From Haloarcula halophila (GTDB lineage: Archaea > Halobacteriota > Halobacteria > Halobacteriales > Haloarculaceae), in contig NZ_CP119559.1 in assembly GCF_029278565.1 (NCBI RefSeq), positions 62,001 through 126,000 of the forward strand: a stretch of 64,000 nt of DNA. Reading direction: 5' to 3'. A program made the position numbers and the translations under genes. Of this stretch, positions 7,538 through 39,554 are shown piece after piece (within the stretch, counting starts at the first letter, position 1; the number at the start of each line of letters is the position of its first letter). The notes below the pieces were generated by a model, which saw nothing but the letters and a program-made list of their open reading frames with translations, was not told the origin of the DNA and did not search any database.

Positions 7538-8299
7538 TCAGGACTCGTCCTCGCGGTGTCGTTCCAGCGCTTCCTCGACGGTCAACTCGCCGACAGCGAC
7601 CCGTCGAGCGAGCGCGTCGCCGATCGCGCGGTTGGTGTCGCTCTCCTTCCGTGAGCGGTCCTTGATCCGCTGGAGTTCGCCCGCCGTCGGGTCGATGTCG
7701 CGGCTCTGGATCTCCTCGCCCTCTAGCCGAGCGATGTTGACCGCAGCCAGCACGTCACCCATCCCGCGGGCACCGGTACCGAGATACGGCGTGGTCCCCG
7801 TCTCGTCGACGAGTTCGATCGGGACGTCCTCGATATCGTCGATCAGCCGCGAGCCCACGAGCCGCGCGCCGTCCCCGATACGGACTACGGGTTCGACGGC
7901 GTCTTCGACCTCCCGAGCGACGACCTCGGCCGCTTTCGCGGCGGGGACCTGGAACGCTGCGACGACCGTCTCGCCGTGGAGGACGGCGACACCGGGCCGC
8001 TCGCCGGGGTCGATCCCGACGACCGTCCGCCCGCCTTCCCCGCGGAGCGTCGCCATGACCGCCTCGACCGCTCGCCGTGGCTCCTCGGGGTCCGCCTGGA
8101 CGACCGGAACCCCGTCGGGGAGTTCGACGTGTTCGCCGGCTGCGATGACCGCGACCGCGGCGTCCTCGGGCCACTCGTCGCCGGGCTCGATAGTCGTGAA
8201 CTCGGTCCCACGGTCCCGAAGCTCGTTGACGACGCCGTGGTACACCTCGAAGTCCGCGGTCGCGACGACGATCACGACCGTAGTTGGCCGGCGACTCAC
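7538..8299 (-). CDS. conserved haloarchaeal protein with RNase H/resolvase-like core (253 aa)
   Basis: The start codon is GTG (complement at 8297-8299), giving MSRRPTTVVIVVATADFEVY. A first alpha/beta segment (about 1-85) is followed by GGRTVVGIDPGERPGVAVLHGETVV near residues 88-112. The pattern hydrophobic-G-I-D-P-G-x-R-x-G-hydrophobic is the first strand of the RNase H-like fold used by YqgF/RuvC-like nucleases. The C-terminus is helical and charged and has RIKDRSRKESD. No clear full set of acidic catalytic residues can be assigned by eye, so nuclease activity is only a suggestion. The gene is convergent with larC (stop codons adjacent) and divergent from the membrane protein at 8409. It is cytoplasmic with no signal. 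Confidence 0.75.
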   Translation of the reverse strand: MSRRPTTVVIVVATADFEVYHGVVNELRDRGTEFTTIEPGDEWPEDAAVAVIAAGEHVELPDGVPVVQADPEEPRRAVEAVMATLRGEGGRTVVGIDPGERPGVAVLHGETVVAAFQVPAAKAAEVVAREVEDAVEPVVRIGDGARLVGSRLIDDIEDVPIELVDETGTTPYLGTGARGMGDVLAAVNIARLEGEEIQSRDIDPTAGELQRIKDRSRKESDTNRAIGDALARRVAVGELTVEEALERHREDES

Positions 8300-39261: not shown

Positions 39262-39330
39262 TGCGCGGGACCGGATTTGAACCGGAGGAAGACTCGCGGT
39301 GCTCGTCTTCCAGGGTTCAGAATCCGTCGG
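39262..39330. repeat. tRNA-Leu 3'-end copy A with hairpin
   Basis: The first 24 nt (39262-39285) equal, base for base, the complement-strand 3' end of the tRNA-Leu gene (T-arm plus acceptor). They are followed by GGAAGAC (39287-39293), a loop, and GTCTTCC (39305-39311), a perfect 7-bp stem, and then by AGGGTTCAGAATCCGTCGGCC, an imperfect inverted copy of the T-arm sequence. The unit therefore is an imperfect hairpin with a tRNA-like end on each side. It lies 209 nt from the same point in the real tRNA. Confidence 0.8.
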
Positions 39331-39368
39331 CCACAAAACACGACGCTCACGTCCGTTCGAGTCGGTGA

Positions 39369-39445
39369 TGCGCGGGACCGGATTTGAACCGGAGGGAGAC
39401 GTTCTCACTACGTTGCGCGCGACTCCCAGGGTTCAAATCGGTCCT
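39369..39445. repeat. tRNA-Leu 3'-end copy B with hairpin
   Basis: The first 24 nt (39369-39392) are identical to copy A and to the tRNA 3' end. GGGAG (39394-39398) pairs with CTCCC (39423-39427), and the sequence after it, GGGTTCAAATCGGTCC, is an inverted near-copy of the T-arm (GGACCGGATTTGAACC), missing one base. The unit is thus a long near-perfect inverted repeat of about 22 nt per arm. It is 107 nt from copy A and 102 nt from the tRNA end. Confidence 0.8.
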
Positions 39446-39470
39446 GCTCTTCGCTCACTTCGTTCGCTCA

Positions 39471-39554
39471 TGCGCGGGACCGGATTTGAACCGGCGGACC
39501 CCTACGGGATAGCGTCCTAAGCGCTACGCCTTTTCCTAGCTCGGCAACCCGCGC
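39471..39554 (-). tRNA. tRNA-Leu (anticodon UAG)
   Basis: Read on the minus strand, this 84-nt gene folds fully. The acceptor GCGCGGG pairs with CCCGCGC and has an A discriminator base. The D arm is GCC...GGC, and the anticodon stem TAGCG/CGCTA holds the loop CTTAGGA with anticodon TAG at 34-36. A long class II variable arm (CCC...GGG) is present, and the T-arm GCCGG-TTCAAAT-CCGGT closes. CCA is not encoded. There is no intron. A TATA-like GGCTTGATACTCC lies upstream near 39580-39592 on the minus strand. Two copies of its 3' end lie downstream. Confidence 0.93.

Follow-up and report, generated by a model that had tools for sequence, protein, structure and literature searches.

The window, a 64,000-nt stretch of the Haloarcula halophila genome, contains a tRNA-Leu(UAG) gene followed by two units which, with a probability of roughly 0.6, form an array of haloarchaeal small, non-coding, non-autonomous insertion elements targeting the tRNA T-arm at the universally conserved GG/TTCRAATC (the slash marks the boundary between tRNA positions 53 and 54). 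The elements, about 60-180 nt long, combine four parts: a first hairpin, which is variable, the target T-arm in inverted copy, an inner stem whose loop varies, and a right end that is constant, usually reads TCCGG and abuts T54. They keep a fixed position and orientation, are precisely present or absent, carry arms matched to the tRNA on bodies common to different tRNAs, and exchange modules. The units are mostly about 93-126 nt long and span 92-178 nt.

The original prediction had described two further exact 24-nt copies of the tRNA 3' end, about 102-107 nt apart and each closing a hairpin with an inverted, slightly altered T-arm. The coordinates of the copies were confirmed, with spacings of 102 and 107 nt, and a folding run recovered both hairpins. 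The locus is composed of the following features:

39471-39554, minus strand: tRNA-Leu(UAG) gene, 84 nt, no encoded CCA, the host gene and head of the array (ARAGORN and Rfam RF00005, 50 bits)
39369-39470, minus strand: unit 1, 102 nt, a spacer with the first hairpin, then the T-arm hairpin closing on the tRNA 3'-end copy (direct repeat, fold)
39445-39470, minus strand: spacer of unit 1, module 1, TGAGCGAACGAAGTGAGCGAAGAGCA (module table)
39430-39444, minus strand: inverted T-arm of unit 1, GGACCGATTTGAACC, with the tRNA-end copy as its partner (fold, sequence)
39394-39427, minus strand: inner stem of unit 1 (GGGAG/CTCCC) and variable loop (fold; compensatory changes in the family)
39369-39392, minus strand: unit 1 copy of the last 24 nt of the tRNA, 24/24 exact (direct repeat)
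39262-39368, minus strand: unit 2, 107 nt, spacer, T-arm hairpin and tRNA 3'-end copy (direct repeat)
39314-39326, minus strand: inverted T-arm of unit 2, CGGATTCTGAACC, with one bulged C (fold)
39286-39311, minus strand: inner stem of unit 2, GGAAGAC/GTCTTCC, with loop (fold)
39262-39285, minus strand: unit 2 copy of the tRNA 3' end, 24 nt, 24/24 exact (direct repeat)

Read in the tRNA sense, a unit runs through the spacer, inverted T-arm, CU, inner stem, variable loop, inner stem, UCC and GG to the segment from T54 to the discriminator, and forms an imperfect palindrome with unpaired internal loops. In unit 1, the inner stem is flanked by the CU/UCC internal loop (39428-39429 and 39391-39393) and the element boundary GG/TTC lies at 39389/39388; position 53/54 of the tRNA-Leu(UAG) gene itself is the boundary used by the hairpin family. 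Each unit folded into one long hairpin on either strand, which was rarely or never equalled by shuffled sequences, the dinucleotide-shuffle z on the tRNA-sense strand being -3.6 both for unit 1 and for the unit 2 hairpin. R1, a covariance model of the T-arm hairpin that was built from these hairpins and gives rough E-values, scored 70.7 bits in unit 1 (39377-39446) and 55.1 bits in unit 2 (39270-39330). In Rfam, the tRNA model was the only one to match at E up to 1. The ORFs of the 34-46 kb part of the window included no recognisable integrase, in agreement with the original prediction, and the ten of them that were run through Pfam gave metabolic or regulatory genes or no match. The motif CGAAC-N-GTGAG, with tandem G-A pairs round a short loop, recurs in the first hairpins and terminal loops of most units, including 39445-39470; it resembles very stable DNA mini-hairpins.

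The same anatomy is located behind many tRNAs in nearly all haloarchaea, so the possibility that the repeats are present nowhere else clearly fails. Of the 41 chromosomal tRNAs of the source genome, 15 were followed within 250 nt downstream by a copy (at least 18/24) of their own 3' end, versus 0/41 in upstream and 0/41 in far-downstream control windows, in which no tRNA reached 17 (far-downstream maximum 16). A BLAST comparison of both units with their own genome gave matches 3' of the Leu(GAG), Val, Thr, Gly, Lys, Phe and Met tRNAs and more, and each matched locus carried the 3' end of its own tRNA. In the same genome, an exact copy of the 3' end of tRNA-Leu(CAA) was located at +206 (L084) together with a different hairpin devoid of the usual inverted arm and a second repeat, GGAAGACTGCAACGGAGCGGTCTTCC; this hairpin perhaps represents a divergent subtype of the family. 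A body-like hairpin, GGAAGACGAGCATCGCGAGTCTTCC, with no tRNA nearby, was also noticed on contig C3 at 152997-153021 (L007).

The search of other haloarchaeal genomes proposed with the original prediction was performed with R1 on a class-wide sample, scoring 20 candidates per genome, and revealed matches in 238 of 242 Halobacteria genomes and 70 of 73 genera. Only four genomes (G045, G051, G083 and G152) had no R1 match; they gave few first-look candidates and thus may differ in base composition rather than be family-free. A separate phylum-wide search with the same model matched 18 of 19 Halobacteria and none of 101 genomes from other classes of the phylum. The number of R1 matches varied from 4 to 37 per Haloarcula genome, and one complete genome of another genus of the same family had 22. 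Tandem runs of four equally spaced units were seen in two genomes: G019 (C1, 588410-588875, 129 bp apart), where they score nearly alike, and G016 (C1, 78957-79401, about 122 bp apart), which has 37 units in 3.3 Mb.

Units were also found, by a pattern search, in named genomes of Halorubrum, Halorientalis, Halosimplex, Halobacterium, Natronomonas, Halococcus, Halorussus and others. A same-strand tRNA was located upstream of 89 of these units, and the end of the local tRNA was repeated in nearly all of them. The body family was present at more than 16 tRNA types. In a set of 147 units, 116 had an intact same-strand tRNA at most 260 nt upstream, with a median gap of 53.5 nt to the inverted arm; the remaining ones were mostly distal array members, lay at contig edges or were split off by integrated elements. 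Apparent orphan units that were traced singly were likewise accounted for by contig edges, by 3' parts of tRNAs missed by ARAGORN or by integrated elements in between.

The inverted arms followed the local tRNA. The base facing tRNA position 57 agreed with the local tRNA in 78 of 81 clean units (Fisher p = 9e-18), with 52 A-T pairs, 26 G-C pairs and 3 exceptions, and beyond the universal loop the inverted arm and the local T-stem shared 285 matches, the shuffled mean being 233 and the maximum 275. This matching could come partly from selection on pairing or from gene conversion. The bodies did not track the tRNA type, as their mean similarity was 0.37 at the same tRNA and 0.32 at different tRNAs, and a near-identical long body was detected at the tRNA-Glu and tRNA-Arg genes of one genome with arms local to each. 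The left boundary of the copy was constant, mostly TCC before GGTTC, whatever the local tRNA has there. Pairing of the inner stem, which is not tRNA-derived, was kept by double changes in 123 cells versus 45 after shuffling (maximum 59). RNAalifold on the raw alignment returned four pairs only, a low count because the insert lengths differ; the family pairs were then named by hand and counted.

The tRNA-Leu(UAG) locus, which was compared in relatives as had been proposed, carried 0 to 3 clear units in varying combinations across 30 Haloarcula genomes, and the bodies turned over rapidly there. Two close Haloarcula genomes differed by a clean 112-bp presence or absence adjoining the tRNA: G001 has unit A, unit D and a tail, and G006 has unit D and the tail, with near-identical flanks. 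The tRNA-Leu(UAG) gene itself kept 7/7 acceptor pairs in 30/30 genomes; the distal copies were decayed, with one or two acceptor pairs lost in 12/36. First-hairpin types and body types occurred in many combinations, which shows that exchangeable modules make up the units, and module 1 of unit 1 was found in the module table joined to different bodies in sister genomes. Of the two origins offered by the original prediction, a tRNA-derived mobile or structural element amplifying beside its parent is supported by these data, since the arrays change in length in both directions and different tRNAs have bodies in common. It should be noted, as an argument against movement, that unequal homologous recombination across the 22-24 bp repeats would be enough for an array to grow at one tRNA.

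Virus-like tRNA arrays were found to contain insertions at exactly the 53/54 position. One such array, of about 24 tRNA genes, lies on plasmid contig C3 of the source genome (G000), a 363-kb replicon; there, a 69-nt family element separates G53 from T54 of tRNA-Cys(GCA) (240146-240288, minus strand; L093, 4155-4224). The tRNA-Cys gene is uninterrupted in the sister arrays of G022, G001 and G003. The same exact insertion was found in tRNA-Glu (G001), tRNA-Ile (G022), tRNA-Trp (G022) and tRNA-Cys (G379, G386, G190 and G399). None of the insertions in these arrays was accompanied by a target duplication, and the scan for 53/54 insertions gave a single control-strand case, besides two weak sense-strand cases outside the family. 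Such exact viral insertions indicate that the chromosomal element sits at the same GG/TTC boundary, in the distal copy. A search of 2.9 million viral contigs of IMG/VR with two strict unit patterns gave no match.

In seven of seven tested split tRNAs, the 5/5 T-stem and 7/7 acceptor pairs were kept. The split tRNA-Cys genes differed at pair 27-43 (C-G versus T-A, G000 versus G379), with 69-nt inserts identical at 53/69 positions without gaps, and at pair 49-65 (A-T versus G-C, G386 and G190 versus G399), with 66-nt inserts identical at 53/66 positions without gaps. Judged by these alignments, the inserts of the compensated lineages look inherited. The tRNA-Cys inserts of G386, G190 and G399 have the first hairpin and a GTGAGCA-type loop in common but fall short of the R1 cut-off, which makes them likely, not proven, members of the family. 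In the metagenome-assembled genome (MAG) QS_4_69_31 (L180, minus strand, 7579-7667), tRNA-Asp is split at 53/54 by a hairpin without a spare T-arm. This incomplete MAG has 35 tRNAs with no other Asp among the candidates read, and the split gene is possibly its only tRNA-Asp. The insert lies within a structurally whole tRNA in the virus-like arrays and in L180, and the tRNA of the window is uninterrupted.

Serial integration remnants were the other origin considered in the original prediction, and the scars of integrative elements using tRNA-Leu as their attachment site are now a very improbable and largely refuted explanation. Direct repeats of a tRNA 3' end are the classic form of such sites. 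Integrase-bearing elements of the HSTV-2 type were found at tRNA-Leu(UAG) itself in G027, G007 and G016, and in G003 (L041) such an element is integrated at the tRNA-end copy of a unit, not at the tRNA. Integrated elements also separate a unit from its tRNA in L228, L237, L239 and L144, where their far border is marked by a 12-19 nt tRNA end; those in L237 (around 4000) and L144 are about 2 kb long, with an integrase-like ORF in L237. However, the attP sites of the HSTV-2 virus and of a Halomicrobium plasmid, whose integrases use tRNA-Leu(UAG) (L267 and L268), gave no hairpin match, the bodies belong to one family distributed over the many tRNA types mentioned above, and scars would leave the inverted arms, matched to the local tRNA, unexplained. 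Chance or repair debris at a single locus has a practically negligible probability in view of the controls in the source genome (15/41 versus 0/41), the class-wide matches and their confinement to the class (0/101 outside it).

The remaining alternatives involve RNA. A 53/54 insert might be removed from the tRNA precursor as an intron-like element, with the inverted arm as an internal guide pairing with the 5' site in the proximal T-loop and the 3' site in the distal T-loop; chromosomal units would then be introns with a spare T-arm and acceptor strand. The intact stems of all seven tested split tRNAs, the inserts kept while tRNA-Cys changes by compensation at 27-43 and 49-65, and the guide-like arm with two possible partners are consistent with this, yet the explanation is unlikely, as no bulge-helix-bulge (BHB) motif was present at the junctions of the seven split tRNAs (best central helix 2-3/4 pairs), and at chromosomal loci the proximal 3' end was always intact and the distal copies decayed, which means that splicing to the distal copy is not needed there. 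A structured RNA with a host role 3' of the tRNA, such as a trailer, a processing or termination signal or a stable small RNA with its fold under selection, would fit the conserved hairpin with compensatory changes and the strand, which was that of the tRNA in every assigned case. The near-universal presence of the family could likewise reflect a host function instead of mobility. A slight excess of G.U over A.C pairs (39 versus 19) favoured the tRNA-sense strand; the asymmetry of this count is due to position 57, and the bias fades when that position is set apart. Against a host role, which appears quite improbable, about two thirds of the tRNAs of the source genome have no unit, the per-genome number spans 4 to 37 within one genus, and a single locus shows rapid turnover of bodies. 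T-runs behind tRNAs that have units did not differ from those behind tRNAs that lack them (means 2.7 and 2.5), a result neutral as to termination before the unit.

For the preferred reading, insertion elements directed to the T-arm, we infer movement between tRNAs. Spread would proceed by DNA-level recombination at GG/TTC. In virus-like arrays the element simply splits the tRNA; in host chromosomes its left end also carries T54-73, so that the chromosomal tRNA stays whole and one exact extra copy of the tRNA 3' end is left downstream per element. We favour a DNA-level step for two reasons: the distal copy is not required by chromosomal tRNAs, and recombination of integrating elements appears to fall within the same 24 bp, as in G003. 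The probable agent would be a recombinase that is directed to tRNAs and works in trans on the element in its folded form; alternatively, the universal T-loop could supply the homology for entry, and fold-back copying of the local tRNA would rewrite the inverted arm. No enzyme could be connected with the family, and neither circular nor free forms were observed. A bolder version is tentative and on the whole doubtful: the family may be a new class of mobile element that homes class-wide to one tRNA nucleotide position and re-templates its arms on the tRNA entered, possibly via an RNA-spliced, intron-like stage with an internal guide aligning two GG/TTC sites.

A repeat family located at roughly a third of the tRNA genes of the source genome and in nearly all sampled haloarchaea seems to be undescribed. 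If the elements move, targeting by the universal T-loop could be studied in them as a compact natural system, and they would account for partial tRNA copies and odd "MRGTGFEPA"-type ORFs in haloarchaeal sequence. Should the split viral tRNAs be functional, they would point to a type of tRNA intron without the bulge-helix-bulge motif.

Mobile DNA lands most commonly in tRNA genes, and tRNA-like t-elements, cleaved by RNase P and tRNase Z, occur in Haloferax volcanii. The rtT repeats of the E. coli tyrT operon are tandem repeats 3' of a tRNA gene, each with the end of that tRNA. The window units are likewise tandem repeats 3' of a tRNA carrying its 3' end, but in contrast to rtT they have no Rfam match of their own, their copies are closed into hairpins by an inverted T-arm, and the units, mostly about 93-126 nt long, occur at many tRNAs across a whole class. 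Compared with miniature inverted-repeat transposable elements (MITEs), no terminal inverted repeats were seen, and direct repeats of 22-24 nt are present in chromosomes and absent from split viral tRNAs. Archaeal BHB tRNA introns also lie inside a tRNA gene with intact stems, as do the inserts of the virus-like arrays and L180; unlike them, the family has no BHB motif and leaves the chromosomal tRNA uninterrupted. Attachment sites of the HSTV-2 and SNJ2 type (PMC8371274) share the tRNA 3'-end repeat and use the same tRNA, but are cores of about 13-54 nt beside an integrase gene, with no hairpin.

In the open-access literature searched, no description of the hairpin family was found, including PMC3119063, PMC8371274, PMC9897764, PMC2841640, PMC2584109, PMC8651126 and PMC4946936. 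Since no known relative agrees with the family both in all tested defining features and in its target, the elements are assigned to the broad kind of non-autonomous palindromic insertion elements, within which their tRNA target and arm behaviour were not found described. According to passages of PMC3119063, the SMR and PATE elements of Haloquadratum are transposase-free palindromic repeats of about 100 bp with strain-specific insertions, which target IS605-type elements and other sites; the units described here target tRNAs and have tRNA-matched arms, none being described for SMR/PATE in those passages. Unlike integrons, the arrays have a tRNA as their first site, a core of GG/TTCRAA rather than the GTTRRRY of attC, no gene in the units (at 92-178 nt there is no room for a usual one) and no integrase beside them. 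They resemble integron cassettes in being arrayed behind a fixed first site and in keeping structure more than sequence, and they resemble attC in forming an imperfect palindrome with outer arms, an unpaired internal loop, inner arms and a variable terminal loop.
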